From the NCBI RefSeq assembly GCF_000240225.1, contig NZ_AGUD01000192.1, positions 1 to 54,975 on the forward strand: a DNA stretch of 54,975 bases, read 5' to 3'. Under the pieces are notes generated by a model. The model had not been told where the DNA came from, did not search any database, and saw nothing but the letters and a program-made list of their open reading frames with translations. Below are positions 10,944 through 49,743 of this stretch, piece by piece. How positions within the stretch are numbered: position 1 is the stretch's first letter; each line of letters opens with the position of its first letter. A program made the position numbers and the translations under genes. The stretch is from Patulibacter medicamentivorans (GTDB taxonomy: Bacteria; Actinomycetota; Thermoleophilia; Solirubrobacterales; Solirubrobacteraceae).

Positions 10944-11313
10944 GCCGGTCGCCCAGCTCGACCGCCGACGGGCATCACCCATCGCGGGAGGGATACCGCC
11001 CACCCGGGGGATGCCCGCGGATGATCGGGCGGCGATCCTGTCGTTGGTCGCGTCGCCGCGTGTCCGGTCTGGTCGCGGCGGCGCGGCGCGGTGTCGCGAA
11101 CGGGCCCGGCGGGAGCGTCGGAGCCGATCGTGGCGCACCCACATACCGCGTCGCGGCGGTCGCTTCCTCCGCGGCGCCCTCCTCCCCGGACCGCGTTGCT
11201 CGTCGACCGACGGGCGGCGCGGTCCACGGGGTCGCCGCGGTCCGCTCGGGGGAGCGAGATGCCCCCATCGAGAGACGAGTCCCCGCCGATCGCCGACTAG
11301 CGTCGCAGTCCTG
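10944..11313 (+). promoter_or_regulatory. Long gene-free region ending in tandem-box promoter of the LLM oxidoreductase
   Basis: No convincing gene is seen in these 370 bases; the open frames have the composition of non-coding GC-rich DNA. The last 75 bases carry the tandem-box design: an outer box around CTCGGGGGAG (11245-11254), an inner box GCCCCCATCGAGAGA (11261-11275), and a -10 TAGCGT (11298-11303). The -10 is 10 nt before the ATG at 11314, so the transcript may have a very short leader or none. Confidence 0.55.
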
Positions 11314-12366
11314 ATGCGACTCGGCCTGCACATCGCCTACTGGGGACTCGGCCTGGACGCCGCCGAGCAGCTGCGACTGGTGAAGGAGGCCGAGCGGCTG
11401 GACTTCGCGTCGGTCTGGGTCGGGGAGGCGTACGGATCCGACGCGGCGACGGTGCTCGCCTGGATCGCCGCCCAGACCGAGCGGATCGAGATCGGCTCCG
11501 GCGTCTTCCAGATGCCGGCCCGCTCGGCGGCGATGACGGCGATGACCGCCGCCACCCTCGACCAGCTCTCCGGTGGGCGCTTCCGGCTCGGCCTCGGGAC
11601 GTCGGGGCCGCAGGTCGCCGAGGGCTGGCACGGGTCGCGCTTCGACCGCCCGCTGACCCGCACTCGCGAGTACGTCGAGGTGGTGCGGATGGCGCTCGCC
11701 CGCGAGCGGGTCGCCTATGCCGGCAAGACCCTCACGCTGCCGCTGCCGGACGGCCCCGGCAAGGCGCTGAAGCTGACGATCGCGCCCCACCAGGAGCGGA
11801 TCCCGATCTCGCTCGCGGCGATCGGCCCCAAGAACACGACCCTTGCCGGCGAGATCGCGGACGGGTGGATCCCGGTCCTGTTCTCGCCCGAGCACGTCGA
11901 GACCACCGCCGGGCTGCTGCGCGAGGGCGCCGAGCGCGGGGGCCGCTCGATCGATGACGTCGCGATCACGCCGCTCGTCTACGCCGCGGTGATGGACGAC
12001 CTGGTGGCGGCGCGCGACGCGGTCCGGCCGATGCTGGCGCTCTACGTCGGCGGCATGGGCTCGCGCGAGAGGAACTTCTACAACACGCTCGTCCGCTCCT
12101 ACGGCTTCGGCGAGGCGGCCGATCGGGTCCAGGACCTCTACCTGGCCGGCCGCAAGGACGAGGCGATGGCCGCCCTGCCCGACGAGCTGATCGACAGCGT
12201 CTGCCTGTGCGCGACGCCGGACACCGTCGGCGAGCGGCTGGCCGCCTACGCCGACGCGGGGGTCGACACGCTGCTGATCAACCCGATCGGGGAGACGGTC
12301 GACGAGCGGCTGACGCAGCTGACCGCGCTGGCGCGGGCGGGTGCGGGCGCCGTCAGCGGGGCCTGA
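11314..12366 (+). CDS. LLM-class (luciferase-like) F420-dependent oxidoreductase
   Basis: The 350-residue protein is a bacterial-luciferase-like TIM barrel. It opens MRLGLHIAYWGLGL and contains ERLDFASVWVGEAYGSDA and TERIEIGSGVFQMPARSA, the usual core of F420-dependent LLM enzymes. SGGRFRLGLGTSGPQVAEGW is the family signature region. It would transfer hydride between F420 and an organic substrate, or be an FMN monooxygenase; the substrate is unknown. No ribosome-binding site is visible; a TAGCGT -10 lies 10 nt before the ATG. It is the leftmost gene carrying the tandem-box promoter. Length fits mycobacterial homologues of about 340 residues. Confidence 0.88.
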   Translation: MRLGLHIAYWGLGLDAAEQLRLVKEAERLDFASVWVGEAYGSDAATVLAWIAAQTERIEIGSGVFQMPARSAAMTAMTAATLDQLSGGRFRLGLGTSGPQVAEGWHGSRFDRPLTRTREYVEVVRMALARERVAYAGKTLTLPLPDGPGKALKLTIAPHQERIPISLAAIGPKNTTLAGEIADGWIPVLFSPEHVETTAGLLREGAERGGRSIDDVAITPLVYAAVMDDLVAARDAVRPMLALYVGGMGSRERNFYNTLVRSYGFGEAADRVQDLYLAGRKDEAMAALPDELIDSVCLCATPDTVGERLAAYADAGVDTLLINPIGETVDERLTQLTALARAGAGAVSGA

Positions 12367-12399
12367 CGAGACGGCGATCGGCCCGCCGCGCCGGCCGGA

Positions 12400-12465
12400 T
12401 CCCCCCGAAGGCGGAGCTTCGTCCTCCCGGCGGGCGTTGTCGGCGCAGGCCCAGGCGAGGACAGT
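12400..12465 (+). promoter_or_regulatory. Tandem-box promoter of the acyl-CoA ligase gene
   Basis: Outer box CCCCCCGAAGGCGG (12401-12414), inner box CCTCCCGGCGGG (12423-12434), and -10-like GACAGT (12460-12465). The inner C-run starts 34 nt before the -10, as at the other promoters of this type. The ATG follows the -10 by 7 nt, so the transcript may be leaderless. Confidence 0.55.
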
Positions 12466-12472
12466 CCCGCGC

Positions 12473-14431
12473 ATGCAACGCTACGCCTGGGAGCCGACGC
12501 CGGACCGGATCGCCGAGGCGAACGTCACGCGGCTGATGCGCAAGGCCGGCAGTGCGTCCATCGACGAGCTGCGGCGAAGCTCGGTGGCGGACATCGACTG
12601 GTACTGGGACCTGGTCGTCCACGACCTGGAGCTGCCCTTCGATCGACCCTACGAGCGGGTCCGCGACAGCTCGGCCGGAGTCGAGTGGACGAAGTGGTTC
12701 ATCGGCGGGCAGCTGAACGTGGCGACGGCCTGCGTCGACCGCTGGCGCCACGATCCGGACGTCGCCGACACGCCGGCGGTGATCCACGAGGACGAGACCG
12801 GCGAGACCAGCACGCTGAGCTACCGCGAACTGGCCGAGGCGGTCGACCGCGCCGCCGCCGGCCTGCGGGCGCGGGGGATCGGCAAGGGCGACGCGGTCGG
12901 GGTGTTCCTGCCGATGATCCCCGAGGCGGTGATCTCGGCCTACGCGATCGCCAAGGTCGGCGCGCTCTACGTGCCGCTCTTCTCCGGCTTCGCGGCGTCG
13001 GCGCTGGCCTCGCGCCTCGACGATGCCCAGGCGCGACTGGTGATCACCGCCGACTGGTCGTGGCGCCGCGGACGCCGGGGGCCGATGAAGCCGGCCCTCG
13101 ACGAGGCGCTGCCCGCCTGCCCGAGCGTCGAGACGGTGGTCGTGGTCGAGCGCGCCGATACCGATGCCGCCGTTCGCCGGGGTCCGATCGACGTCAGCTG
13201 GCGCGAGTTCGCCGCGCCGGTCGACGGCCCGGTCGCGGCGGCCCCGACCAGCGCCGAGGACCCGCTGCTGCTCGGCTACACGTCCGGCACCACCGGTCGG
13301 CCGAAGGGGGCCGTCCACACCCACGCCGGTTTCCTGGTCAAGGTCGCGTCCGAGGTCGCCTACGAGTTCGACCTGCGGCGCGGCGACGTCTTCTTCTGGG
13401 TCACCGACATGGGCTGGGTGATGGGGCCGTTGTCGACCTTCGGGACGCACGCCCTCGGCGGTGCGCTGCTGCTCTACGAGGGCGCACCCGACACGCCGGC
13501 GCCCGACCGGCTGTGGCAGGTCGCGGCCCGCCACCAGGTCTCGATGTTCGGGGTCTCGCCGACGCTCGTCCGGGCGCTGAAGGCCCACGGCGACGAACTG
13601 CCGGGCCGCCACGACCTGTCCGGCGTGCGGACCTTCGGCTCGACGGGGGAGCCATGGGACGAGGACTCCTACTGGTGGCTCAGCGACGTCGTCGGCGGCG
13701 GTCGGGCCCCGATCATCAACTTCTCCGGCGGGACCGAGATCGGCGGGGCGTTCCTGGCTCCGTTCGTCGTCGAGCCGATCCGGCCGTGCTCGCTCGGCGG
13801 GCCCTCGCTGGGGATGGACGTCGACGTCTTCGACGCCAGCGGGCGCCCGGTCCGCGGCGAGCTCGGCGAGCTGGTCTGCCGCCAGCCGTGGCCGGCGATG
13901 ACCCGCGGCGTCTGGGGCGACCCGGAGCGCTACCGCGAGGCCTACTGGTCGACGTTCCCCGGTGTCTGGCGCCACGGCGACTGGGCGAAGGCCGACCTCG
14001 ATGGCGAGTGGTACCTGTTCGGCCGCTCCGACGAGGCGATCAACGTCGCGGGCAAGCGGGTCGGGCCGGCCGAGGTCGAGAGCGTCCTGGTCGCCCATCC
14101 CGGCGTCGCCGAGGCCGCCGTGATCGGCGTCCCCGACGTCGACAAGGGCGAGGCGATCTGGTGCTACTGGACGCCGACGGCCGCCGAGGGCGAGGACGTC
14201 TCCGACGAGCTGCGGGCCGCGATCGGGGGCGAGCTGGGCAAGCCCTTCACGCCGGCCCGGGTGTTGCGCGTCGACGCCCTGCCGAAGACCCGCTCGGCCA
14301 AGATCATGCGCCGGGCGATCCGGGCGGTGACGATCGGCGGCGACCCGGGCGATCTCTCCGGGGCCGAGAACCCGGAGGCGCTGGAGCTGATCCGGACGGC
14401 CGCCGGCAGCGCGATCGCCGGCGTCGGCTGA
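12473..14431 (+). CDS. AMP-forming acyl-CoA synthetase (acetyl-CoA synthetase-like)
   Basis: The 652-residue ANL-superfamily ligase has the P-loop-like YTSGTTGRPKGAVHTH, the adenylate-binding INFSGGTEIGG and GRSDEAINVAGKRVGPAEVE hinge. The C-terminal catalytic Lys lies in KTRSAKIMRR. The length and the N-terminal ACAS-type extension (WTKWFIGGQLNVATACVDRW) place it nearer acetyl/propionyl-CoA synthetases than long-chain ligases. It activates a carboxylic acid to acyl-AMP then acyl-CoA. The ATG at 12473 is chosen over an in-frame upstream start because a -10-like GACAGT lies 7 nt before it. Its tandem-box promoter ties it to the MCE and Liu genes. Substrate may be a short or branched acid; this is inference. 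Confidence 0.9.
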   Translation: MQRYAWEPTPDRIAEANVTRLMRKAGSASIDELRRSSVADIDWYWDLVVHDLELPFDRPYERVRDSSAGVEWTKWFIGGQLNVATACVDRWRHDPDVADTPAVIHEDETGETSTLSYRELAEAVDRAAAGLRARGIGKGDAVGVFLPMIPEAVISAYAIAKVGALYVPLFSGFAASALASRLDDAQARLVITADWSWRRGRRGPMKPALDEALPACPSVETVVVVERADTDAAVRRGPIDVSWREFAAPVDGPVAAAPTSAEDPLLLGYTSGTTGRPKGAVHTHAGFLVKVASEVAYEFDLRRGDVFFWVTDMGWVMGPLSTFGTHALGGALLLYEGAPDTPAPDRLWQVAARHQVSMFGVSPTLVRALKAHGDELPGRHDLSGVRTFGSTGEPWDEDSYWWLSDVVGGGRAPIINFSGGTEIGGAFLAPFVVEPIRPCSLGGPSLGMDVDVFDASGRPVRGELGELVCRQPWPAMTRGVWGDPERYREAYWSTFPGVWRHGDWAKADLDGEWYLFGRSDEAINVAGKRVGPAEVESVLVAHPGVAEAAVIGVPDVDKGEAIWCYWTPTAAEGEDVSDELRAAIGGELGKPFTPARVLRVDALPKTRSAKIMRRAIRAVTIGGDPGDLSGAENPEALELIRTAAGSAIAGVG

Positions 14432-14460
14432 GGCTCGCCGCGGGCCCATCGCGAGGCGGT

Positions 14461-14525
14461 CCTCCCAACGGACGGTGCGGTTCCTCCCGCGGGAAGACGG
14501 CGCGCCACGGGGCCGCGACTACGGT
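14461..14525 (+). promoter_or_regulatory. Tandem-box promoter of the NTF2-like gene pair
   Basis: Outer box CCTCCCAACGGACGG (14461-14475), inner box TTCCTCCCGCGGGAAG (14481-14496, a near-perfect palindrome), -10 TACGGT (14520-14525). The inner C-run (14486) is 34 nt upstream of the -10. The transcript would have a leader of about 65 nt with a good AGGGAGG ribosome-binding site. Confidence 0.6.
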
Positions 14526-14596: not shown

Positions 14597-15064
14597 ATGG
14601 ACTACGCGTTCGCCGTCAAGTGGCTGAAGGCGTTCCGACACAGCGCGGAGGCGATCTGCGAGCTGTACGCGGACGACTTCGTCTTCGAGGACCCGATCCT
14701 CGACCAGTACCAGATCCGCGACAAGGGCGACCTCGGTCGGATCTTCGTGCTGTACGCGAACAAGGACCGCGAGAACGGCCTCGGCGTCCACAACTTCCGG
14801 ATCCGCGGCTACGAGGGCGACCGCCGCAGCGGCCTGATCCGCTGGGAGTGGACGCCCGAGGACGCCGGCAACTTCATCGGCCTCGACGTGACGAACAAGC
14901 CGTTCTTCACCCAGGGCCACACGTTCCACGTCTACGACGAGCAGGGCCGGATCACGCGCGAGTCGTCGTGGTGGGACGTCGGGGCGATCCTGACCGCGAT
15001 CGGCCAGCCCGGGATCGAGAAGGCCCGGATCCCCGCGAAGTCGGCTGTCGCCGGCGCGGCCTGA
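14597..15064 (+). CDS. NTF2/SnoaL-like small protein (paralogue 1)
   Basis: The 155-residue protein has the size and alternating pattern of the NTF2-like cone fold (ketosteroid isomerase/SnoaL group): an N-terminal helix with ICELYADDFVFEDP, then strands with LIRWEWTPEDAGNFIG and FHVYDEQGRITRESSWWD. AGGGAGG lies 6 nt before the ATG. Members bind hydrophobic ligands or act as isomerases or cyclases; no catalytic assignment is possible here. It shares YANKDR-NGLGV with the next gene, showing tandem duplication. A tandem-box promoter precedes it and the MCE operon follows the pair, suggesting a role in handling imported lipids. Confidence 0.75.
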   Translation: MDYAFAVKWLKAFRHSAEAICELYADDFVFEDPILDQYQIRDKGDLGRIFVLYANKDRENGLGVHNFRIRGYEGDRRSGLIRWEWTPEDAGNFIGLDVTNKPFFTQGHTFHVYDEQGRITRESSWWDVGAILTAIGQPGIEKARIPAKSAVAGAA

Positions 15065-15073
15065 GAGGACTCC

Positions 15074-15565
15074 ATGACCAGCATCGACTTCGCCCGCACC
15101 TGGGCGGACACCCGCCAGAACGACCTCGAGGCGCACGCCGCGCTGTACGCCGCCGACGAGCGCTTCACGATCGAGGAGCGGATGGTCGACGACCACCTCG
15201 GCGACACGATCAGCGATCGCGCGGACCTGCTCGCGCAGCTTGCGCCCTACGCCAACAAGGACCGCGACAACGGGCTCGGCGTCCAGACGATCACCGTCAC
15301 CGAGGCGTTCGCCGGCAACGGGCACCTGATGATCCACTGGGACTGGTCGGTCGAGGGCCTGGAGACCTTCCACGGCCTGCCGGTCGAGGGTCGCACCCTG
15401 ACCTCCAAGGGCTCGACGTTCCTGCAGTTCGACGATGCCGGGAAGATCACGCTCGAGTCGACGATCCTCAACGAGAACCCGGTCTTCCAGCAGCTCGGGC
15501 TGCCGATCATCACGCCGCACTACTGGGAGGAGGGCTTCGACCCCGCCTCCCTCACGGCTGCCTGA
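15074..15565 (+). CDS. NTF2/SnoaL-like small protein (paralogue 2)
   Basis: The 163-residue protein starts MTSIDFARTWADTRQNDLEA and has the same NTF2-like layout as its neighbour, including YANKDRDNGLGV, HWDWSVEGLETFHG and FLQFDDAGKITLEST. Only 9 bp separate the two genes, and GAGAGGAC precedes the ATG, so they are co-transcribed. The differing N-terminal halves suggest different ligands or a heterodimer. No known enzyme is recognisable. A strong hairpin follows. Confidence 0.75.
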   Translation: MTSIDFARTWADTRQNDLEAHAALYAADERFTIEERMVDDHLGDTISDRADLLAQLAPYANKDRDNGLGVQTITVTEAFAGNGHLMIHWDWSVEGLETFHGLPVEGRTLTSKGSTFLQFDDAGKITLESTILNENPVFQQLGLPIITPHYWEEGFDPASLTAA

Positions 15566-15711: not shown

Positions 15712-15780
15712 TCTCCCACCAAGGGGGGAGGGATCCTCTCCCCCCGCAGGATGGTTCCTGTGCACGGCCGCACATACGGT
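15712..15780 (+). promoter_or_regulatory. Tandem-box promoter of the first MCE operon
   Basis: Outer box CTCCCACCAAGGGGGGAG (about 15712-15730), inner box CTCTCCCCCCGCAGGATGG (15736-15754), -10 TACGGT (15775-15780), 33-35 nt from the inner C-run. The leader runs about 55-60 nt to a short upstream reading frame. The rest of 15566-15863 holds only the hairpin at 15621-15645. Confidence 0.6.
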
Positions 15781-16739: not shown

Positions 16740-16754
16740 GGCCGGGAGAGCACC

Positions 16755-17624: not shown

Positions 17625-17630
17625 GGCCGG

Positions 17631-27490: not shown

Positions 27491-27812
27491 CACTCCTCCC
27501 CGCCGCGCTGGCGGCGATCTCCACTCTCCGACCGGCGGCGCCCGTCCTCCGACGAGCGCAGCCGGCACCGACGTGGTCAGGCTCGCACGCCCTCGAGGCG
27601 GCGAGCCTCCTCGGATCGGAGGAAGGCCCTCCCCCGATGGGGGCAGCGATCGCGGCGGTCCCGGCGGCCACGGATCGTTCGGTGGACGGATCTCCCCCTG
27701 GCGAGAGATGCCGCGCCAGAGGCCCGCGGGGGAGTCTGCTCGCAGGAGATCGCCGTGGGCCGAGCCGCGTCCGCGACGGTCTACCGACCACCACACGGAC
27801 GAGGAGCGAGAG
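27491..27812. promoter_or_regulatory. Divergent control region between the two SCP2-like genes
   Basis: This 322-bp gap has no gene. It contains CCTCCTCGGATCGGAGG (27606-27622) and CCCCCGATGGGGG (27631-27643), whose G-runs are 21 nt apart, the same box spacing as at the other promoters, here oriented toward the minus-strand gene. A further pair of C-run/G-run boxes, CTCCCCCTGGCGAGAG (27693-27708) and CCCGCGGGGGAG (27723-27734), could serve the plus-strand gene. I could not place a TAnnGT -10 at the usual distance for either. Confidence 0.45.
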
Positions 27813-31191: not shown

Positions 31192-31254
31192 ACAGTAGGC
31201 GGGATGCCACGGTCGGAAATCCCCTCAGGGGGGAGCTTGTCTCCTCCATCCGGG
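31192..31254 (-). promoter_or_regulatory. Tandem-box promoter of the RibBA/flavin reductase operon
   Basis: On the minus strand: outer box CCCGGATGGAGGAG (complement of 31241-31254), inner box CTCCCCCCTGAGGGG (complement of 31219-31233), -10 TACTGT (complement of 31192-31197), 36 nt from the inner C-run. The stretch after the inner box (ATTTCCGACCGTGG) nearly matches the equivalent stretch of the promoter at 39457-39521. Confidence 0.6.
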
Positions 31255-31291
31255 TCGAAGGCCCAGCGGACCGCCCTCGACCCGCGGCGGC

Positions 31292-33070: not shown

Positions 33071-33377
33071 GGCTCTCCCCTCGTGGTGGTCCGGACCGCC
33101 GCGACGCTCCCGGTGCCGCGACAGGCGCCGATCTTGGCTGCCGCGCGAGTGTCGATGCGCCATGTTCTTCCGTCCGGAGCAGCAAGCTCACCCTTTCGAG
33201 AGGCGGCCGACGGTTCGCGTCGGTCAAGTGCCGGCCGGACGGCGGCCGGACTCCCCCGATCGGTGAGGAGAACCCTGCGAAGGGGTGACGAGCGGCGGTT
33301 GGCGCCGGCCTAGGGTCGATGTCCCGAGGTGCGACGCCCGTCGCACGAGGGCGACGAGGAGAGGGGCCAGCCACCGC
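33071..33377. promoter_or_regulatory. Divergent control region: acyl-CoA ligase (minus) and Liu operon (plus)
   Basis: For the plus strand: outer box CCCCCGATCGGTGAGGAG (33253-33270), inner box ACCCTGCGAAGGGGT (33272-33286), -10 TAGGGT (33311-33316), 38 nt from the inner C-run. The ATG is 61 nt further on. For the minus strand, weaker boxes CCTCTCGAAAGGGTGAGC (complement of 33186-33203) and TGCTCCGGACGGAAGA (complement of 33167-33182) are seen, without a clear -10. No gene lies in this stretch. Confidence 0.55.
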
Positions 33378-39427: not shown

Positions 39428-39456
39428 GGGGCGGCCGGAGCCGCCGCGAGCGGCCT

Positions 39457-39521
39457 CACCCCATCGGAGGGGGCAGAGTCCCCCTAGGCGGGATTTCCGG
39501 CCGTGGAGCCGGATCTAGGGT
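39457..39521 (+). promoter_or_regulatory. Tandem-box promoter of the second ACAD-fold gene
   Basis: Outer box CACCCCATCGGAGGGGGC (39457-39474), inner box GTCCCCCTAGGCGGGATT (39478-39495), -10 TAGGGT (39516-39521), 36 nt from the inner C-run. ATTTCCGGCCGTGG follows the inner box, nearly identical to the stretch in the RibBA promoter. Confidence 0.62.
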
Positions 39522-41385: not shown

Positions 41386-42591
41386 TCAGTCCTGGCCGAT
41401 CTGGGCGATCCCGAGGTAGCGCGCGATCGCCTGCGAGCGGTTGACCGCCCCGAGCTTGCGGAGGATGTGCTTGACGTGGGACTTGACGGTCCCCTCGGTG
41501 ATCACCAGCTGCTCCGCGATCGCGCCGTTGGTCGCACCGACGACCATCAGCTCGAGCACCTCGCGCTCGCGGGCCGTCAGCTCGCTGAGGGCGTCGGCGT
41601 CGGAGGACAGCGCCGAGACGGCGCTGCGGGTGACGATCGTCCCCGGATCCGGGTGCTGCGCCAGGTCGATCCCGGAGTCGCACAGCTCGTCCATCATCCG
41701 CTCGGTCGAGGCCAGCGTCTCGCGCACGTGGTCGCGCTGGGCCCGCAGGCGCTCCAGCAGCACGCTGCGCTCGTAGATCTGGCCGAAGCCCTCGGCGAAC
41801 GCCCACAGGACGTCGCGGTCGACGTCGTCGACGCGGCGGGCGGACGGATGGTAGTCGGCGTGCAGGAAGCCGACCACGGTGCCGCCCGGCATCACCGGGG
41901 CCGCGACGTAGGACCGCGACCGGCCGGCGTCGACGATGATCGGCCGGTGGACGGTCGCCGTCTCGGTGTCGTAGACGATCCCGGGGCGCCGCTCGCGCAG
42001 CAGTTGCGCCTCGAGCGTGTCCTCGTCGAGCGGGATCGCCTGGTTGACCCAGTCGGTGAACCAGGACTCGAACTCCTGCTCGTCGCTGAAGTAGCCCATC
42101 CACGGCTTCCAGATGCCGTTCTCGACCCGCGAGAGGACGACCCGGCCGAAGCCACAGCGACGGACCAGCTCCTCGCAGACCTGATCGATCAGATCGGCCG
42201 AGGTCGGCAGCGACCGAAGCCGCGAGAGCCCGGCCGAGCAGTCGACCAGGCGCCGGGTCCGCAGGCTCAGCTCGTGCTCGTAGAGCTCGAGCGCCAGCTG
42301 CTGCAGCTCGGCGACCAGACCGCAGAGCCGTGCGGTCGTCTCGTGGTCGGCCTCGGCGGTCAGCCGCAGCCGCTCGATGCAGATCCAGGTCAGGGCGGAG
42401 ACGATCTCGGCCGAGCGCCCCGGACGGTCGCGATCGACGCCCGACACCGCCAACGCCTCGCCGAGGGCTTCGGAGACCGCCTGGTGCATCGTGGTGACCC
42501 GCGTGACCAGCTCGCTCTCGCGGCGCCGCCAGCCGGGGCTGCGCGACGGCGCCGGGAACGCGCGCGGGACCTCCTCGTCGACGGCGGTCAT
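41386..42591 (-). CDS. GAF-domain LuxR-family transcriptional regulator (downstream paralogue)
   Basis: The 401-residue protein has an N-terminal helical part, a GAF-like sensing domain (CGFGRVVLSRVENGIWKPWM, SRSYVAAPVMPGGTVVGFLH) and a C-terminal LuxR/NarL HTH (LTAREREVLELMVVGATNGA, IAEQLVITEGTVKSHVKHIL). It is paralogous to the adjacent upstream gene and overlaps it by 4 bp (ATGA), so both are made together, perhaps as a heterodimer. GAF domains bind small ligands. The pair sits in the middle of the genes with tandem-box promoters and is the best candidate for their activator (inference). Confidence 0.88.
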   Translation of the reverse strand: MTAVDEEVPRAFPAPSRSPGWRRRESELVTRVTTMHQAVSEALGEALAVSGVDRDRPGRSAEIVSALTWICIERLRLTAEADHETTARLCGLVAELQQLALELYEHELSLRTRRLVDCSAGLSRLRSLPTSADLIDQVCEELVRRCGFGRVVLSRVENGIWKPWMGYFSDEQEFESWFTDWVNQAIPLDEDTLEAQLLRERRPGIVYDTETATVHRPIIVDAGRSRSYVAAPVMPGGTVVGFLHADYHPSARRVDDVDRDVLWAFAEGFGQIYERSVLLERLRAQRDHVRETLASTERMMDELCDSGIDLAQHPDPGTIVTRSAVSALSSDADALSELTAREREVLELMVVGATNGAIAEQLVITEGTVKSHVKHILRKLGAVNRSQAIARYLGIAQIGQD

Positions 42592-43757
42592 GCCACCGGG
42601 TGCTGGTTGCGGGCCAGGCGCAGGTAGCGCGAGACCGCTTCGGCGCGGTTCGACGCCCGCAGCTTGCGCAGGATGTGCTTGACGTGCGATTTCACGGTGC
42701 TCTCCGAGACGACCAGCTGATCGGCGATCTGGACGTTGGTGGCCCCGCTGGCGAGCAGGCCGAGGACCTCGCGCTCGCGCGGGGTCAGGATCCCGTGGAT
42801 CCGGGCTTCGGGCGCGGTCAGCATCGCCGCCGGCGACGTCTGGGGGGCGTCGGTCCCGACCTCCTCGCGGGCCAGCTGGACCTGCTGCTCGCAGAGCTCG
42901 GCGATCATCGACTCGGTCGACGAGAAGACCGCGCCGATCCGCTCGCGCTGCATCGCCAGCCGCTCGACCAGGACCGCTCGCTCGAAGATCAGGCCGAAGC
43001 CCTCGGCGAACGTCTGCAGGTTGTCGCGGTCGTAGCTGGTCAGCGGCCGCCCGGACCAGTAGGCGTCGGCGTGCAGGAAGCCGATGACCGGTCCGGTGGT
43101 GACGATCGGCGCGACGACGTAGGCACGGGTCTCGGACAGCTCGATCAGCGGCCGGAAGGTCCGTGCCTCGCCCTGCGCGTCGTGGATCAGCGCTGGTGCC
43201 CGACGGCGGACCAGCTCGGCCTCGAGCATCGAGGTCGTCAGCGGGATCTCGATCCCGTCGAGGAACTGCTTCAGCTCCCCGTTGACCTCGCTGTCCTCGC
43301 CCGCGGCGATATGCAGCACGTCCGGCACCCAGGTCGACCCGCGCACGCGCGAGATCAGCGCTCGGTCGAAGCCGCAGGCCGCGCACAGCTCGGCGGGGGC
43401 GGCTTCGATCAGCGCCGCCGAGCTGGGGGCCTGGCGGATCCGGGCCAGCGCCTCGTGGATCCGGTGGAGGGTCTGGAAGCGCAACCCGAGCGTGTGCTCG
43501 CGCAGGTCGGACTGCAGCTCGCCGACCTCGACCAGCAGCTCGCAGAGGTCGGCGGCGCGGTCGGGGCGCAGGCGGCCGGCGAGGAACTCGGCGCTGATCT
43601 GCTCGGTGGTGGTCGTCAGGGTTGCGATCAGCTGACGGGCGGAGTCGGGGTCCGGGTCCGGTGGATCGGCCGCGACCAGGCCACGAGTGGCGGCGGTGAG
43701 CTCTCGCACCCGCAGGTCGATGTCCGGTGCTGCAGGCGTGGCTGCTGCCGAGGTCAA
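42588..43757 (-). CDS. GAF-domain LuxR-family transcriptional regulator (upstream paralogue)
   Basis: The 389-residue protein shares architecture with its neighbour: GAF-like segment (CGFDRALISRVRGSTWVPDV, TRAYVVAPIVTTGPVIGFLH), then coiled region (QTFAEGFGLIFERAVLVERL) and HTH (LTPREREVLGLLASGATNVQ, IADQLVVSESTVKSHVKHIL). The start is TTG 43757, chosen because AGGAGGAG lies about 8 nt upstream; no ATG or GTG with a comparable site is nearby. It is divergent from the HMG-CoA lyase gene, whose control region carries the inner tandem box. Confidence 0.88.
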   Translation of the reverse strand: MTSAAATPAAPDIDLRVRELTAATRGLVAADPPDPDPDSARQLIATLTTTTEQISAEFLAGRLRPDRAADLCELLVEVGELQSDLREHTLGLRFQTLHRIHEALARIRQAPSSAALIEAAPAELCAACGFDRALISRVRGSTWVPDVLHIAAGEDSEVNGELKQFLDGIEIPLTTSMLEAELVRRRAPALIHDAQGEARTFRPLIELSETRAYVVAPIVTTGPVIGFLHADAYWSGRPLTSYDRDNLQTFAEGFGLIFERAVLVERLAMQRERIGAVFSSTESMIAELCEQQVQLAREEVGTDAPQTSPAAMLTAPEARIHGILTPREREVLGLLASGATNVQIADQLVVSESTVKSHVKHILRKLRASNRAEAVSRYLRLARNQHPVA

Positions 43758-43994
43758 AACCCGTCTCCTCCTGTAACGCTCGCGAGCGCGGCGCGCCGAC
43801 GCTCGCACGGGCCTCCCAGTCCCGATGGCCGATGCTACCCCAGCGTCGGCCGCCAGAACGGGCCTCGAACGGCCCCTGACCGCGAGCGGGGGAGCGATCT
43901 CCTCCACAGGGAGGACGAGCGGCCGTTGGCCAGCCGGCAGATTGCTCCCGTGCAGCCGACGGCTGCCTCGCCACGCCGTCCCGGGAGCGCCGAC
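43758..43994. promoter_or_regulatory. Divergent control region: GAF-LuxR operon (minus) and HMG-CoA lyase (plus)
   Basis: For the plus strand an inner box TCTCCTCCACAGGGAGGA (about 43899-43916) lies 36 nt before a -10-like CAGATT (43938-43943). An outer G-run (GCGGGGGAG, 43885-43893) lies about 20 nt upstream of the inner one. The stretch GACGAGCGGCCGTTGGC after the inner box nearly repeats the one at 33287-33303. The minus-strand promoter for the regulators is not obvious. Confidence 0.5.
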
Positions 43995-44924
43995 GTGCCT
44001 GCCGACACGACCCTGCCCGCCGCCGTCACGATCCGTGAGGTCGGGCCTCGCGACGGCTTCCAGAACGAGCCCGAGCGGATCGCCACCGCCGACAAGGTGC
44101 GCTTGATCGAGGCGCTCGCCCGGACCGGTCTGCAGCGGATCGAGGTGGCCAGCTTCGTGCGGCCCGACGTGCTGCCGCAGCTGGACGACGGCGTCGCTGT
44201 GCTGCAGGCGATCGACGTCCCCGACGACGTCCACCTGAGCGTCCTGGTTCCCAACCAGCGGGGGCTCGATCGAGCGCTGGAGCTGCGCGACCGGTTCCAC
44301 GAGATCTGCCTGTTCCTCAGCGCCAGCGAGACCCACAACCGCCGCAACGTCAACAGCGCGGTCGACGACTCGCTGGCCGCGATCGAGCGGATGCTGCCGC
44401 AGGTCCACGCCGCCGGGCTGCGTTGCCAGGCCGTGGTGGCGACCGCGTTCGGCTGCCCCTACGAGGGCGTGGTCCCGGGCGAGCGGACCCTGGAGATCGC
44501 GGGGCGGCTGGCCGCCGCCGGGGCCGACGAGGTCGGCTTCGGCGACACGACCGGGATGGCCAACCCGCTGCAGGTCCGCGCCTTCTTCGCGGCCGCGCGG
44601 CAGGCGCTGCCGAACGTGGAGCTGACCGCGCACTTCCACAACACGCGCGGGCAGGGGCTGGCCAACGTGCTCGCGGCGCTGGAGGCGGGCTGCACGTCGT
44701 TCGAGTCGAGCTTCGGCGAGCTGGGCGGCTGCCCGGTGCCGGCGGGGGCGACCGGCAACATCGCCAGCGAGGACCTCGTCTCGATGCTGCACGAGATGGG
44801 GATCGAGACCGGGGTCTCGCTGCCGGCACTGCTCGACGCCACCCGTGACGTCCAGCGGGTGCTCGGCCGGCCGCTCGGCAGCCATGTGCTGGTGGCCGGG
44901 CCGATCGAGTGGGCCACCGCCTGA
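43995..44924 (+). CDS. liuE: Hydroxymethylglutaryl-CoA lyase
   Basis: The 309-residue TIM-barrel lyase has IREVGPRDGFQNE (metal and substrate site), IEVASFVRPDVLPQLDD, ATAFGCPYEGVVPG, GFGDTTGMANP, TAHFHNTRGQGLANVLAALE and the Cys loop FGELGGCPVPAGATGNIASED that carries the catalytic Cys in HMG-CoA lyases. It cleaves HMG-CoA to acetyl-CoA and acetoacetate, the last step of leucine degradation and of isoprenoid acid degradation (Atu/Liu). GTG 43995 follows GGGAG. It stands apart from the Liu operon (33378-38975) but has the same promoter type, so co-regulation replaces co-transcription. Confidence 0.9.
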   Translation: MPADTTLPAAVTIREVGPRDGFQNEPERIATADKVRLIEALARTGLQRIEVASFVRPDVLPQLDDGVAVLQAIDVPDDVHLSVLVPNQRGLDRALELRDRFHEICLFLSASETHNRRNVNSAVDDSLAAIERMLPQVHAAGLRCQAVVATAFGCPYEGVVPGERTLEIAGRLAAAGADEVGFGDTTGMANPLQVRAFFAAARQALPNVELTAHFHNTRGQGLANVLAALEAGCTSFESSFGELGGCPVPAGATGNIASEDLVSMLHEMGIETGVSLPALLDATRDVQRVLGRPLGSHVLVAGPIEWATA

Positions 44925-44928
44925 GTGC

Positions 44929-44990
44929 TGCCCCAACGGGGGGCACGAACCCTTCGGCGGTGAGATGGCGTGCCGTCGATCGCTGACGAG
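44929..44990 (+). promoter_or_regulatory. Tandem boxes upstream of the aldehyde dehydrogenase gene
   Basis: Outer box TGCCCCAACGGGGGGCA (44929-44945, almost a perfect palindrome) and inner box ACCCTTCGGCGGTG (44949-44962), C-runs 19-20 nt apart. A -10 at the expected place (about 44985) is poor (CTGACG), so this promoter is less certain. Confidence 0.45.
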
Positions 44991-45058
44991 AATCGGAGCG
45001 ATCCGCCGCGTCGCGCTCTCTCGCGCGGCCGCGGCGACCACCGATCCGGGAGACGAGC

Positions 45059-46576
45059 ATGGCGACCGTGGGCGTCCAGCACCACAAGATGTTCATCGGC
45101 GGCGAGTGGCGCGACGCCGCCGACGCGTACGAGATTCGCAACCCCGCCAACGAGGAGCTCGTCGCGACGGTCGCGAAGGGCGGCGCCGACGACGTCGACG
45201 CCGCCGTCGCAGCCGCTCGGGCCGCGTTCCGGAGCGGCTGCTGGTCGGGGCTGACCGGTGACGAGCGGCGCGCGGTGATGCTGCGGATCGCCGAGGGCGT
45301 CTCGGAGAACCTGGAGGAGCTGATCGAGCTGGAGATCGCCGCCAACGGCGCGACGGTCCGCCAAGCCGGCGGCTTCCACATCGGGCTCGCCGCCCCGCAC
45401 ATGACCTACTTCGCCGAGCTCGCCGCCAAGCACGAGGTCGAGCGGGGGATCGCGACGGCGCCCTATCCGACGATCTCCCACAACATCCTGCGACGCGAGC
45501 CGATCGGCGTCTGCGCTGGGATCCTGCCCTGGAACTTCCCCCTGGTCCTCAGCCTGTGGAAGATCGGACCGGCGCTCGCCGCGGGCAACACGGTGGTGAT
45601 CAAGACCGACGAGAAGACGCCGCTGTCGACCCTGGCCTTCGCCCGGATCGCGCACGAGGCCGGGCTGCCGGCCGGGGTCCTGAACGTGATCACCGGCGAC
45701 GGCGAGGACGTCGGCGCGCGGCTGGCCTCGCACCCGGACGTCGGCAAGGTCGCCTTCACCGGCTCGACCGCGGTCGGGCGCGAGATCATGCGGCTGGCCT
45801 CGCAGACGGTCAAGAAGGTCTCGCTGGAGCTGGGCGGGAAGGGCGCGGCCGTCGTGCTCGACGACGCCGACCTGGAGACCGTGGCCGACGCCGCGCTGTT
45901 CGGCTGCTGCCTCTACAGCGGCCAGATGTGCGAGTCGATCACCCGCCTGATCGTGCCGGACTCGATCCACGACGAGCTGGTCGCGCGGATCGTCGCGCGG
46001 GCCGCCACGATCAAGCTCGGCGACCCGGCCGACTACGACACCGACCTCGGCCCGGTGATCTCGGCCGAGCAGCACGAGCGGATCCTCAGCTACCTGCAGA
46101 TCGGCCGCGACGAGGGCGCGACGGTGGCGACCGGCGGCGGCGTGCCCGAGGGCCCTGGCTTCGAGAAGGGCTTCTGGGTCCAGCCGACCGTCTTCACCGA
46201 CGTCACCAACGACATGCGGATCGCGCGCGAGGAGATCTTCGGCCCGGTCCTGACGGTGATCAGATACAGCGGCGACCCGGCCGAGGGCGTGGCGATCGCC
46301 AACGACTCGATCTACGGCCTCTCGGCCGCGGTCTGGAGCGGCGACTACGAGCGAGCGCTCGAGGTCGCGGCCAAGCTCGAGGCCGGCACCGTCTGGGTCA
46401 ACGACGTCCACATGGTGACCCCGGAGTTGCCGTTCGGCGGCTACAAGCAGAGCGGCCTCGGCCGTGAGCTGGGCCCCGACGCGCTCAACGAGTACAGCGA
46501 GGTCAAGCACATCCACGTCGATCTGTCGCAGCGACGGGAAGCACGCGCCTACGACATGGTCCTCAGCGACGGCTGA
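45059..46576 (+). CDS. Aldehyde dehydrogenase (NAD-dependent, betaine-aldehyde-type)
   Basis: The 505-residue ALDH has ILPWNFPLVLSLWKIGPALA, the NAD-binding GSTAVGREIMR, the general-base Glu in SLELGGKGAA and the catalytic Cys in YSGQMCESITRL. The closing LPFGGYKQSGLGRELG is also present. It oxidises an aldehyde to the acid with NAD(P). The ATG at 45059 follows GGGAGACGAGC. Tandem boxes upstream suggest co-control with the lipid genes. It could complete alcohol-to-acid conversion begun by a GMC-type oxidoreductase, but this is speculative. Substrate unknown. Confidence 0.92.
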   Translation: MATVGVQHHKMFIGGEWRDAADAYEIRNPANEELVATVAKGGADDVDAAVAAARAAFRSGCWSGLTGDERRAVMLRIAEGVSENLEELIELEIAANGATVRQAGGFHIGLAAPHMTYFAELAAKHEVERGIATAPYPTISHNILRREPIGVCAGILPWNFPLVLSLWKIGPALAAGNTVVIKTDEKTPLSTLAFARIAHEAGLPAGVLNVITGDGEDVGARLASHPDVGKVAFTGSTAVGREIMRLASQTVKKVSLELGGKGAAVVLDDADLETVADAALFGCCLYSGQMCESITRLIVPDSIHDELVARIVARAATIKLGDPADYDTDLGPVISAEQHERILSYLQIGRDEGATVATGGGVPEGPGFEKGFWVQPTVFTDVTNDMRIAREEIFGPVLTVIRYSGDPAEGVAIANDSIYGLSAAVWSGDYERALEVAAKLEAGTVWVNDVHMVTPELPFGGYKQSGLGRELGPDALNEYSEVKHIHVDLSQRREARAYDMVLSDG

Positions 46577-46583: not shown

Positions 46584-47513
46584 CTACCGGCGGGCCTGCT
46601 CGTGGCGACGCGCCTCGAGCAGGCGGACGCCGCTGACGAGCGCGCCCTCCAGCTGCTCGAGCTCGTCGTCGCCGAGCGGCCGCTCCAGCGCGACGTCGGC
46701 CAGCGCGGCCGTCGTCGCGACCGCGGCGGACAGGGCCTCGTCGTCGCGCGGCGCCAGCTCGGCCCGCAGCAGGCGCAGCGCCGCGGCTGCCTGGAGCGCG
46801 GCGCCGCGGCTGCGACCGTGGTCCAGGTCCAGGTGCGTGCGCAGCAGCAGGTCCTCGGCCTCCAGCACTGCCTGGCGCCCCGTCAGCGCGTCGGCGACGG
46901 CCTGCGACGGGGCCAGCGCGGCCGCCCGTCGCTGGCGCCCGCCGGAGGGGGCCGGCAACTCGACGGCCTCGGTCCAGCCGCCGTCGGCGACCTGGCTGGT
47001 GGTGCCGTAGCCGATCCGGACCGCGCGGGCGTCGCGTCGCGTCACCTCGCTGACGTAGGGATCGCCAGCGCCGGCGCGGTGGGCGCGTATCGCCCGGTTG
47101 AGGACCTCCAGCCCCTCCTCGACCCAACGCTGCTGGAGCCCCTCGTCTCCGACGATCTCGTCGAGCCGCTCGCGGGCGGCCTGCTTGCCCGTCAGCGGCG
47201 CGCTGCCCTCGACGAAGCTGGCGAGGGCCACCGGCACCGGCTCGCCAGCGGCCTCGGCGACCGCCGGGCGCGCGCGGCGGCGGAGCTTGAACCCGGTCGT
47301 GCGGGCGCCGACGACCGCGATCACCAGCACGTCTGCCTCGCCGGTGGTCAGGAGCGTGCCGGTGGTGCGGTGTCGCTCGCGCGCCGGCTGCGGTCGGCCG
47401 TCGTCGCCGTCGGCCGTCCGCAGCCCGCGGAGGGGTGCGGCGACGTAGCGCCCGGGCGTCGGTCCGAGCCCGTGGGTGAACTCGAACTGGACGAAGACGA
47501 AGAGCGGATCCAC
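46584..47513 (-). CDS. Protein of unknown function
   Basis: The 309-residue protein begins MDPLFVFVQFEFTHGLGPTP and is rich in Ala, Arg and Leu with much predicted helix in its second half (for example AAALRLLRAELAPRDDEALS). I recognise no family, signal peptide or membrane segment. The first 80 residues contain GRYVAAPLRGL and VLVIAVVGARTTGF, suggesting a small beta domain. The GTG start has TAGAGT (complement of 47520-47525) only 6 nt upstream, so the mRNA may be leaderless. It is divergent from the MCE ATPase gene and convergent with the aldehyde dehydrogenase (7 bp between stops). Confidence 0.6.
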   Translation of the reverse strand: MDPLFVFVQFEFTHGLGPTPGRYVAAPLRGLRTADGDDGRPQPARERHRTTGTLLTTGEADVLVIAVVGARTTGFKLRRRARPAVAEAAGEPVPVALASFVEGSAPLTGKQAARERLDEIVGDEGLQQRWVEEGLEVLNRAIRAHRAGAGDPYVSEVTRRDARAVRIGYGTTSQVADGGWTEAVELPAPSGGRQRRAAALAPSQAVADALTGRQAVLEAEDLLLRTHLDLDHGRSRGAALQAAAALRLLRAELAPRDDEALSAAVATTAALADVALERPLGDDELEQLEGALVSGVRLLEARRHEQARR

Positions 47514-47701
47514 GGCCCGACTCTACGCCCGGCACGGCATCCGCACGGGGTGCTCCCCCTCCCAGGGAGGATGGATATCCACCCCCTTGGGCATCCACTT
47601 CGCGGAGGGCCGACCGTACGATCGTCTGGCAGTGTGGGAGCCGGTCGGTCCGACTCCGCGAGCCGCCTCGTGCGGTGCGCTGCACGGCAAGGAGAGAAGC
47701 G
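47514..47701. promoter_or_regulatory. Divergent control region with tandem-box promoter of the MCE ATPase
   Basis: Plus strand: outer box CTCCCAGGGAGG (about 47559-47570) within a longer C-rich run, inner box ACCCCCTTGGGC (47581-47592), -10 TACGAT (47617-47622), 35 nt from the inner C-run. The leader of about 75 nt ends with AAGGAGAGAAG. Minus strand: TAGAGT (complement of 47520-47525), 6 nt before the GTG of the unknown gene. Confidence 0.58.
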
Positions 47702-48619
47702 ATGTCGGGACGGGGGCTGCTCCACCGGAGGGCCGGCGGCGAGGACGGGTTCGATACCGGCGACGGCATCGCTGCCGACGCCGAGACCAAGGAGCTGCTC
47801 GACCGCGCCCACGAGTACAGCCTGCACGAGGGGCAGACCAGCTTCCGCGAGAAGCACCCCGGCGAGTTCTGGTCGATCGAGTGCATCGACGTCTACAAGA
47901 GCTTCGGCCGCCAGCCGATCCTCAACGGGCTGAACCTCGGCATCCCCGAGGGCATGATCACGATCGTGCTGGGCCCGTCGGGCACCGGCAAGAGCGTCCT
48001 GATCAAGCACCTGATCGGCCTGCTCTTCCCCGACTACGGCGACATCATCGTCCACGGCCAGTCGGTCCCGCACCTGACGACCTCGCAGCTGCTGGAGATG
48101 CGCCAGAAGTTCGGGATCCTGTTCCAGGACGGCGCGCTGTTCGGGTCGATGAACATCTTCGACAACGTCGCCTTCCCGCTGCGGCAGAACACCGACATGC
48201 CGGAGGACCGGATCGCCGATGTCGTCCACCAGCGGCTGTCCGAAGTCGGGATGGGCCACGCCGGCGAGCTGATGCCGAGCGAGTTGTCGGGCGGCATGCG
48301 CAAGCGCGCCGGGTTCGCCCGCGCGCTGGTGACCGAGCCGGAGATCGTCGTCTTCGACGAGCCGGATTCCGGTCTCGATCCGGTCCGCACCGCGCTGCTC
48401 TGCGACCTGATCGTGAAGATGCATGCCCAGCACGGCGGGACCTACGTCGTGGTCACGCACGACATCGCGTCGCTGCACCAGATCGGGCAGTACATCAGCG
48501 TGCTCTGGAAGGGACGGATCGTCCAAGCGGGCGGGCGCGAGGAGATGTTCGCGTCGGAGAACCCATTCGTCCGCCAGTTCCTCAATCGTCGGACCGAGGG
48601 CCCGCTCGGGATGGACTGA
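47702..48619 (+). CDS. mkl: MCE-type lipid importer ATPase (Mkl/MlaF family)
   Basis: The 305-residue ABC ATPase has Walker A GPSGTGKS, Q-loop LFQDGALFGSMNIFDNVAFP, signature LSGGMRKRAGFARALV, Walker B IVVFDEPDSGLDPVR and the switch His in VVTHDIASLH. FQDGALF and DEPDSGLDP are typical of Mkl/MlaF rather than other ABC families. An N-terminal extension of about 60 residues precedes the core. AAGGAGAG precedes the ATG. MCE operons in actinobacteria usually lack an ATPase gene and share one encoded elsewhere. This is the likely motor for both YrbE pairs in the window, and its promoter has the same tandem boxes as the first MCE operon. Confidence 0.92.
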   Translation: MSGRGLLHRRAGGEDGFDTGDGIAADAETKELLDRAHEYSLHEGQTSFREKHPGEFWSIECIDVYKSFGRQPILNGLNLGIPEGMITIVLGPSGTGKSVLIKHLIGLLFPDYGDIIVHGQSVPHLTTSQLLEMRQKFGILFQDGALFGSMNIFDNVAFPLRQNTDMPEDRIADVVHQRLSEVGMGHAGELMPSELSGGMRKRAGFARALVTEPEIVVFDEPDSGLDPVRTALLCDLIVKMHAQHGGTYVVVTHDIASLHQIGQYISVLWKGRIVQAGGREEMFASENPFVRQFLNRRTEGPLGMD

Positions 48620-48658
48620 GCCCGTCGGCCGGCGCCGGCGGGTCCTCCCGCTGCGAAC

Positions 48659-48708
48659 GAGACCGATGCCGGGGTGCTTCCCCGCGTGCCGTCCCCGGCG
48701 TCGGTCTC
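48659..48708 (+). terminator. Long hairpin after the MCE ATPase gene
   Basis: GAGACCGATGCCGGGG (48659-48674) and CCCCGGCGTCGGTCTC (48693-48708) pair over 16 positions with a single G-U type mismatch around an 18-nt loop. It starts 40 nt after the ATPase stop and probably ends that transcript. Confidence 0.65.
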
Positions 48709-48772
48709 CGTTCGGCTGCGCCGAGCGTCGGTTCGCCCCCGATGCCATCGCCGTGATCGTGCGAGCCCTTCG

Positions 48773-48904
48773 ATGATGTGGCTGCTGCTGGCCGTGACGA
48801 TCGGCAGCGAGGTCTTCGCGACGTCGATGCTGCGCGCTGCCGGCTCGGACGATGCGGTGGCGATGGCGGGGCTCGGGATGGTCAACCTGGCCGAGACGAC
48901 GTGA
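48773..48904 (+). pseudogene. Truncated small multidrug resistance (SMR) transporter, first helix only
   Basis: A 43-residue frame begins MMWLLLAVTIGSEVFATSML, which matches helix 1 of SMR/EmrE proteins including the essential membrane Glu (SEV). Complete SMR proteins are about 105 residues with four helices. Here homology ends after about 27 residues and a stop follows at 48902. The stop overlaps the GTG of the next gene (GTGA). It is most likely a relic left by a deletion that joined it to the downstream gene; a retained short hydrophobic coupling peptide is the alternative. Confidence 0.65.
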
Positions 48905-49593
48905 GCGCGGTGACGCGACCGCCCGGACAGTCGTCGCCGATGCCGGCGGCGCCGCGGGCCGACAGCGGCTGGATCGCGCCCGACGTCGCCGAGGAGCTTC
49001 CCGGTCTCGGGCTGGCCAGCTTCGAGGGCCCGTGCCCCGTGGCCGCGCGCAGTCCCCGGTGGGCGAAGGACCACCTGCGCCAGCTCTCGACCGCGATCGA
49101 CGGCCGCGACGTCCTGCACATGCATCAGATGACGGTGCCGGCCGCCTTCCGCGCCCTCTTCCGGGCGTTGGGTCGCGACCCGGACCACGACCGTTCGCCG
49201 TACGAGGCGGCGTGCATCGAGCGGCTGGCCCGCGGTGGCTTCCGCCCCGGCGGCCTGCCGGACGACGCACTGCTGATCGCCCTGGTCGAGACCGGGGTGC
49301 CGGTCTGGGCGCTCGACGCCGACGCGGTTGACGGCACGCTCGGGATCCGCTGCAGCCTCAGCGGCGAGATCCCGGACCCGACCGATCCGGGCCGGCCGCT
49401 GCCACCGGGTCGCCTGGTGGTGGCGGACGAGCGGCGGGCGCTGGCCGACCTCTGCCGACCGCCGCGAGCCGAGGTCGCCGTCGGCCGCCGCACCGAGCGT
49501 GCGGTCTTCTTCGCCATCCGTCCTCCGGGCGTCGCAGCGATCACCGTCGACGAGGCGCTGTGGTCGTGCCACGCGCTGCTGGCGGCCGGATGA
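48901..49593 (+). CDS. B3/4 tRNA-binding-domain protein
   Basis: The 230-residue protein matches the B3/4 domain found in the phenylalanyl-tRNA synthetase beta chain and in free-standing proteins. Segments include ELPGLGLASFEGPCPVAARS, VPAAFRALFRALGRDPDHDR, ERLARGGFRPGGLPDDALLI and ALVETGVPVWALDADAVDGT. Free-standing members are thought to have editing-like or unknown roles. GTG 48901 overlaps the truncated SMR stop by 4 bp; no independent promoter or strong ribosome-binding site is visible. It has no clear link to lipid metabolism. Confidence 0.78.
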   Translation: MSAVTRPPGQSSPMPAAPRADSGWIAPDVAEELPGLGLASFEGPCPVAARSPRWAKDHLRQLSTAIDGRDVLHMHQMTVPAAFRALFRALGRDPDHDRSPYEAACIERLARGGFRPGGLPDDALLIALVETGVPVWALDADAVDGTLGIRCSLSGEIPDPTDPGRPLPPGRLVVADERRALADLCRPPRAEVAVGRRTERAVFFAIRPPGVAAITVDEALWSCHALLAAG

Positions 49594-49606
49594 GCCCGCC
49601 GGCTCG

Positions 49607-49669
49607 CTCGAACGGGGGACGGCAACGCTCCCTCGGGCAGATGCGCGCTGCGCGCCGCCGACCTACGGT
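49607..49669 (+). promoter_or_regulatory. Tandem-box promoter of the small secreted peptide/ABC transporter unit
   Basis: Outer box CTCGAACGGGGGA (49607-49619), inner box GCTCCCTCGGGC (49627-49638), -10 TACGGT (49664-49669), 34 nt from the inner C-run. G-runs of the two boxes are about 20 nt apart. Confidence 0.55.
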
Positions 49670-49743
49670 GGCGTTGGGAGAGAGGGGCCGGCGCCGAGCG
49701 CCGATCGACGCCCTGAGAGAGATCGGCTGAGGAGGGGGACGGT

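Follow-up and report, generated by a model that had tools for sequence, protein, structure and literature searches.

Tandem inverted-repeat boxes at fixed distances from the -10 element precede lipid genes of Patulibacter medicamentivorans, with GAF-LuxR proteins as candidate activators

In contig NZ_AGUD01000192.1 of Patulibacter medicamentivorans (54,975 bp, from a 5.09-Mb draft genome; hereafter the window, meaning the whole stretch analysed), genes for lipid uptake and breakdown are preceded by a promoter architecture that is real and strict: two inverted-repeat boxes lie 21-22 bp apart, and the inner box starts 37-38 bp before a -10 element. The boxes are probably read by tandem dimers of NarL-type helix-turn-helix (HTH) regulators, most likely the GAF-LuxR pair encoded at 41386-43709, which would bind a ligand and activate a lipid regulon. 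An earlier note on this DNA had listed ten such sites, and all ten are present where it placed them. Because these sites were picked by eye, the tests made outside the window carry more weight.

Box and promoter geometry

We aligned the ten sites by expectation maximization (EM) with flat priors, allowing box distances of 17-27 bp and distances to the -10 element of 28-43 bp. The alignment settled on a 14-bp inverted repeat, CCYCCS-NN-SGGRGG, as the box core. The distance between boxes (d) was 22 bp in eight sites and 21 bp in two, which refines the near-constant 20-22 bp seen before. The distance from the start of the inner box to the -10 element (t) was 37 bp in nine sites and 38 bp in one, so the spread of 34-38 nt described in the earlier note was an effect of alignment. 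The -10 elements are TAnnnT-like overall; the strict TAnnGT form holds in seven of the ten, and the others read GACAGT, CAGATT and TACGAT.

EM reached a log-likelihood of 159.3 on the ten sites (25 iterations), whereas 25 sets of ten random upstream segments gave a mean of 77.7 (sd 5.8) and a highest value of 87.1 (15 iterations). Leave-one-out scores ranged from 17.8 to 33.1 bits, with nine of the ten sites above 22; the site at 14486 shifted by one base in this analysis, to d 21 and t 38. Scanning the window yielded 15 matches of at least 22 bits, all intergenic and including the ten training sites, whereas twenty dinucleotide shuffles averaged 0.05. Promoter-like matches of at least 20 bits under the full model numbered 14.

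We also compiled 67 promoters, of which 14 come from the window (the ten training sites and an odd site at 5553 included) and 53 from other regions (including one designated L035). Flank columns that the model did not score are conserved in this set, with T at -23 and -1 and A at -8 and +14. Since a T before and an A after each box are kept, the extended box is a 16-bp 7-2-7 inverted repeat, TCCYCCS-NN-SGGRGGA. The C-run/G-run repeats reported earlier are thus present, but the box is more than runs. Two 7-bp half-sites inverted around 2 bp are the form of a NarL-type operator. The palindromy of each box appears in the per-column counts and is not fully independent, the matrix that picked the sites having been symmetric. 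Among 62 promoters picked by the model, half-sites matched at 4.9-5.6 of seven positions, compared with 2.9 by composition, and the facing half-sites (5.5 and 5.6) were better kept than the outward ones (4.9 and 5.0).

Directly after the inner box an A-T-G is conserved across the 67 promoters, again in columns outside the model scoring. A hexamer starting at this ATG leaves a 17-bp spacer to the -10 element, which indicates that the inner box abuts a weak -35 element. If the -10 element covers -12 to -7, the box centres would lie near -42.5 and -64.5. An activator of class II occupies a site overlapping or abutting the -35 element, near -41.5, and the predicted geometry fits this placement. 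The class-II-like arrangement suggested in the earlier note is probable for the predicted start positions, and its geometry recurs on DNA that was not used for training.

Recurrence around GAF-LuxR genes and lipid genes

To judge spacing outside the window, we took the best box pair per intergenic stretch, with a summed score of at least 9 bits and a flat expectation over 15-35 bp; a strict single-box cut-off left too few pairs to judge, and this softer sum was used in its place. The regions around GAF-LuxR genes, pooled with L035, comprise 260 intergenic stretches; they yielded 81 best pairs, 30 of them 21-22 bp apart (p 2.4e-11), and p was at most 1.5e-8 at all six cut-offs. Relatives alone gave 24 of 62. 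The best -10 element stood at offset 37-38 in 10 of these 30 pairs, compared with 1 of 15 in other DNA (421 stretches). In L035 we found no GAF-LuxR gene, and receiver-LuxR and cupin-HTH genes are present; this region was pooled with the GAF-LuxR regions in the spacing, conservation-column, coding-match and gene-link counts. L028, which holds a 24.2-bit match, stood outside the other-DNA set in the spacing and column counts. G001, a relative from the same genus, has the closest regulator match; its other-DNA sample was drawn from all along the chromosome and moved off known GAF-LuxR stretches. One region of the other-DNA set, L037, overlaps a GAF-LuxR region, L120.

The surroundings of GAF-LuxR genes (562,167 bp) contained 18 promoter-like matches of at least 20 bits, and the larger sample of other DNA (857,452 bp) contained 3 (L035 excluded and L028 counted as other DNA). 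Of these three, the one in L149 lies before an SCP2 gene, that in L028 before an AAA ATPase gene and that in L117 before a LuxR gene. The earlier note had named abundant hits inside coding regions as a sign that the motif was spurious; we found few coding-sequence matches of at least 18 bits: one among the 45 matches of the GAF-LuxR regions and L035, and three among the 12 of other DNA. With L035 counted, 19 genes have a site of at least 20 bits, and 11 of them have no orthologue among the window genes at an identity above 55%. Homologues of the window's lipid, coenzyme A (CoA), MCE or SCP2 genes accounted for 24 of the 52 leading genes that have a site and for 25 of the 225 that lack one (p 6e-8; GAF-LuxR regions, L035 included), so the association with lipid genes extends beyond the window. 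The proposal of GAF-LuxR proteins as candidate regulators also stands, as the model trained on the window recovered the same geometry around their genes; their binding to the boxes and the activation that would follow are steps that we infer.

Orthologous promoters provide a further comparison, to which those of RibBA and of the dehydrogenase gene at 39559 did not belong. G001 has sites of at least 16 bits before the orthologues of the luciferase-like monooxygenase (LLM) family oxidoreductase, both acyl-CoA ligases, the SnoaL-like pair, SCP2, the dehydrogenase at 33378, the aldehyde dehydrogenase and the ATP-binding cassette (ABC) ATPase. A second relative, G006, keeps those of 3-hydroxy-3-methylglutaryl-CoA (HMG-CoA) lyase, aldehyde dehydrogenase, the ATPase and the dehydrogenase at 33378. 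More widely, 12 of 41 genomes encode a GAF-LuxR relative (E 1e-30 or better), and we scored the upstream regions of 97 loci taken from among the matches to four families (SCP2, HMG-CoA lyase, MlaE and acyl-CoA dehydrogenase). With the window's four genes excluded, sites of at least 16 bits were found at 14 of 39 loci in genomes with a GAF-LuxR relative and at 2 of 54 in those without (p 6e-5). For SCP2 the corresponding counts were 9 of 15, window gene included, and 0 of 15. Two orthologues of the dehydrogenase with 82-83% identity retain its site, which the four relatives at 61-62% lack.

Several observations weigh against control of these promoters by the GAF-LuxR proteins, or limit its reach. 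In 306,705 bp of held-out DNA from the same genome, on contigs partly picked for weak matches to the window, 4 matches reached at least 20 bits, all intergenic, and five shuffles gave 1-6. As the held-out DNA does not exceed its shuffles, the motif is enriched locally and not genome-wide, which tells against the proposal if a genome-wide regulon is meant. The five shuffles also held 215-260 matches of at least 12 bits, and with weak matches so plentiful, sites below about 18 bits are uncertain. The other GAF-LuxR regions of this genome, taken alone, have a weak excess at 21-22 bp (4 of 13, p 0.029), and other DNA has a slight one (15 of 83, p 0.011). The link between GAF-LuxR genes and sites is confounded with kinship, because the gene-bearing genomes include the nearest relatives, and the p values treat related and orthologous promoters as independent. 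In genomes with a GAF-LuxR gene, sites of at least 14 bits precede only 2 of 11 HMG-CoA lyase, 5 of 10 MlaE and 3 of 7 acyl-CoA dehydrogenase genes, window genes included. Finally, the regulator pair has no clear promoter of the tandem-box type of its own: read on the minus strand towards the pair, the boxes near 43.9 kb score 17.3 bits with the -10 element TGGCGG.

Candidate regulators and competing explanations

The GAF-LuxR pair adjoins the HMG-CoA lyase promoter. Both proteins carry a GAF domain followed by a C-terminal GerE HTH, each above its Pfam cut-off, and Pfam lists no Response_reg (receiver) domain for either, which sets them apart from NarL-type response regulators. Among solved chains, NarL is the nearest match to the HTH of regulator 1 (E 2.4e-11), and the relatives of this protein in G001 and G006 match at 78% and 76%. 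We rejected membership of the RamA family (NCBIfam NF041673), whose cut-off of 500 bits lies far above the scores of the two proteins (34.6 and 32.0 bits, from the HTH part only).

In the proposed mechanism, the boxes would be operators of NarL/LuxR-type HTH proteins, with one dimer on each 16-bp 7-2-7 repeat. Spaced by 22 bp, or two helical turns, the two dimers would occupy one side of the helix, with centres near -42.5 and -64.5; the inner one would abut the weak -35 element (ATG-type, 17-bp spacer) in a class-II-like position, with the second dimer behind it. Once their GAF domains have bound a ligand, the regulators would bring RNA polymerase to about 13 promoters and turn on one regulon, comprising the MCE importer, the ABC ATPase, acyl-CoA ligases and dehydrogenases, the methylcrotonyl-CoA carboxylase/HMG-CoA lyase route, SCP2 and flavin supply.

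We regard it as unlikely that the boxes are operated by another protein family, such as an AraC-type activator (gene 4356-5462) or a TetR repressor (genes 9808-10437 and 51725-52360). Genes of both families are present in the window, and AraC proteins often bind direct repeats in tandem that adjoin the -35 element, with a spacing of about 21 bp. Each box here is palindromic by column counts (with the symmetric picking matrix), and a homologue of the window AraC protein (E 1e-5) occurs in only 1 of 15 fetched site-bearing regions, on which ground we rejected an AraC regulator. TetR homologues are also found in regions without selected sites, and placement upstream of the -35 element suits an activator better than a repressor.

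The same placement bears on the idea that the GAF-LuxR proteins bind the boxes and repress or act in both directions, to which we give little credence. A precedent exists in RamA, a LuxR-type protein with C4/G4 motifs that represses bca in Corynebacterium glutamicum according to the accessible part of PMC4847777. Two boxes upstream of a poor -35 element at fixed helical phase are instead the layout of an activated promoter, as in the NarL precedent. It is highly improbable that the boxes are chance C/G runs of GC-rich DNA or terminators of upstream genes: shuffled DNA does hold many weak matches and as many strong ones as the real held-out DNA, but the spacing peak at 21-22 bp outside the window, the EM null sets and the enrichment around GAF-LuxR genes reject chance, as the earlier note had argued from the fixed spacing, and 5 of the 13 promoters share four intergenic regions between divergent genes, where the absence of gene ends rejects terminators.

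The pairing of the GAF-LuxR genes invites a broader hypothesis. In the G001 stretches taken from regulator matches, 20 of 25 of the numerous GAF-LuxR genes form ten pairs, of which eight overlap by 4 bp, as does the pair orthologous to that of the window, one by 8 bp, and one is separated by 176 bp. Five genes appear single by our own gene caller's starts, and one of these (L112) has a partner match. These genes could have multiplied in Patulibacter as translationally coupled pairs, each a hetero-oligomeric two-input sensor filling both 7-2-7 boxes, with lipid and other catabolic clusters wired by one tandem-box promoter re-used with small half-site changes; we offer this as a speculation more likely wrong than right. 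Counting against it, tandem boxes also stand beside unpaired GAF-LuxR genes, and a different specificity of outer and inner box was rejected, since none of the 16 columns differed between them at p < 0.01 in 62 promoters. As the two boxes are alike and occur beside unpaired genes, the data do not support the idea that each paralogue takes one box.

The geometry is NarL-like and the C/G half-site RamA-like, and the proteins belong to neither group. NarL binds 7-2-7 sites as a dimer and can activate from a single site at -44.5 or about -67, close to the two positions predicted here, and also from -77.5, in the portions available of PMC7419079 and PMC9314961. As described there, the NarL promoters ogt and yeaR of Escherichia coli likewise have 7-2-7 repeats for GerE-type HTH dimers, and ogt has tandem sites, one of them abutting the -35 element; its sites at -44.5 and -77.5 are farther apart, whereas 21-22 bp is common to about 13 promoters here. 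NarL is a phosphorylated response regulator, whereas the window regulators carry GAF domains. The NarL half-site consensus differs from TCCYCCS. RamA, for its part, has a GAF domain. It resembles the present system as a LuxR-type regulator of carbon metabolism that reads C4/G4 runs, and the TCCYCCS half-sites contain such runs; its motifs, A/T/C-GGGG-N and A/T/C-CCCC-N, are given in the excerpted text of PMC4847777 as single runs, not as phased 7-2-7 pairs. TpdR of Rhodococcus jostii TMP1 is also a LuxR-family activator with two repeats upstream of an actinobacterial catabolic promoter (P-TTMP; -79/-65 and -51/-37). It differs, in the sections available of PMC6099782, as a large ATP-binding (LAL) regulator whose repeats are 15-bp direct repeats of other sequence. 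In the accessible parts of open-licence papers on tandem operators of RamA-like or GAF-LuxR proteins, on LuxR regulators of Patulibacter and on mce control in Thermoleophilia we did not recognise the layout, which is no proof of absence.

Promoters and genes of the window

A codon-usage script called 50 genes in the window, of which 38 were scanned against Pfam and ten against NCBIfam. By Pfam they include an MCE importer, a separate ABC ATPase, acyl-CoA ligases and dehydrogenases, methylcrotonyl-CoA carboxylase, HMG-CoA lyase, SCP2, SnoaL-like proteins and RibBA with flavin reductase, a set that reads as one lipid programme (Table 1). The carboxylase/lyase route leads us to guess at a lipid with branched or isoprenoid parts as substrate. 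The gene at 11314-12366, earlier called luciferase-like, scores 385 bits with the NCBIfam model for the Rv3520c family (cut-off 335), which makes its product an F420-dependent oxidoreductase.

Three boxes had been listed without a clear -10 element. The one at 44929-44962 has GAGAAT at 37 and that at 27606-27643 has a weak CACGGA at 38; the latter boxes may also serve the minus-strand gene 26987-27490. The pair at 33167-33203 indeed lacks a TAnnnT-like -10 element at the expected place. It reads best as serving the minus-strand ligase gene, because a matching pair (19.6 bits, -10 element GACCGT) precedes the G001 orthologue.

Table 1. Tandem-box promoters and candidate regulator genes in the window (boxes given as outer, inner; d and t in bp; bits, match score of the site or of the orthologous promoter named)
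Feature	Position	Strand	Boxes	-10 element	d	t	Details
F420-dependent LLM oxidoreductase gene 11314-12366 promoter	11238..11303	+	11238-11253, 11260-11275	TAGCGT 11298-11303	22	37	G001 23.1 bits
AMP-binding acyl-CoA ligase 12473-14431 promoter	12401..12465	+	12401-12416, 12422-12437	GACAGT 12460-12465	21	37	G001 19.3 bits
Two SnoaL-like genes 14597-15565 promoter	14460..14525	+	14460-14475, 14482-14497	TACGGT 14520-14525	22	37	G001 24.0 bits
MCE operon 15996-26166 promoter	15714..15780	+	15714-15729, 15736-15751	TACGGT 15775-15780	22	38	G001 only 14.1 bits, outer box degenerate; G006 7.3 bits
SCP2 gene 27813-28214 and AveC-like gene promoter	27608..27674	+	27608-27623, 27630-27645	CACGGA (weak)		38	
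RibBA gene 29967-31145 and flavin reductase promoter	31192..31257	-	31257-31242, 31235-31220	TACTGT 31197-31192	22	37	
Box pair before acyl-CoA ligase 31292-33070	33166..33203	-					13.2 bits at best
Acyl-CoA dehydrogenase, enoyl-CoA hydratase and methylcrotonyl-CoA carboxylase genes 33378-38975 promoter	33252..33316	+	33252-33267, 33273-33288	TAGGGT 33311-33316	21	37	G001 23.2, G006 28.0 bits, TAGGGT in both
Acyl-CoA dehydrogenase 39559-40812 promoter	39456..39521	+	39456-39471, 39478-39493	TAGGGT 39516-39521	22	37	37.5 bits, top-scoring site of the window
GAF-LuxR regulator 2 (401 aa)	41386..42591	-					Pfam GAF_2 and GerE; 4-bp overlap with end of regulator 1
GAF-LuxR regulator 1 (373 aa), proposed activator	42588..43709	-					Pfam GAF and GerE
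HMG-CoA lyase 43995-44924 promoter, region shared with GAF-LuxR pair	43878..43943	+	43878-43893, 43900-43915	CAGATT 43938-43943	22	37	G006 18.2 bits
Aldehyde dehydrogenase 45059-46576 promoter	44928..44993	+	44928-44943, 44950-44965	GAGAAT 44988-44993	22	37	22.1 bits; G006 27.8, G001 21.6 bits
ABC ATPase 47702-48619 promoter	47557..47622	+	47557-47572, 47579-47594	TACGAT 47617-47622	22	37	G001 18.1, G006 22.4 bits
ABC-2 transporter 49968-51566 promoter	49604..49669	+	49604-49619, 49626-49641	TACGGT 49664-49669	22	37	G001 homologue: no upstream site of at least 16 bits among the matches listed

The MCE operon encodes two MlaE permeases and six MlaD/MCE proteins by Pfam. Two MlaE genes of G001 (C1:726494-727234 and 4650404-4651144) match the window MlaE with equal score and identity (84%), and a third matching place (2644-3231) has 79%; the MCE locus may be duplicated in G001. 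A 309-aa protein at 46584-47513 had no Pfam or NCBIfam match at E 0.001, and a 56% identical G001 protein lies beside the ATPase gene.

Tandem pairs of other sequence were also observed. The odd site at 5553 is a pair at 5531-5595 with the half-sites GTGTCCG-AA-CGGATCA, 21 bp apart, and the -10 element TAGCGT at 37; it precedes a short-chain dehydrogenase/reductase (SDR) gene at 5603 and adjoins the divergent AraC-family gene 4356-5462. It scores similarly and may belong to another regulator, perhaps one using the same layout. At L117:4725 in G001, a pair with half-sites TACCCG/TGCCCG at 21/37 precedes a LuxR gene that has no GAF domain by Pfam, possibly representing autoregulation by a cousin of the same layout. 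In L035 (G000:C150, 515-15100), palindromes CCTCCGATCGGAGG and near copies precede lipoyl/E3-binding protein, hydrolase, ABC permease and cupin-HTH genes; clustered with cupin-HTH and receiver-LuxR genes, they are likely another regulon.

Few species of Thermoleophilia have been cultivated and characterised, according to the available text of PMC6544083. The present analysis offers rules, open to testing, for how lipid uptake and breakdown may be regulated in this class: the promoter model allows regulon members to be predicted from sequence, and the GAF-LuxR proteins are a candidate family of activators. To our knowledge, the substrates of many MCE importers are unknown; if the proposed control is true, these importers would be linked to defined catabolic genes by common regulation.

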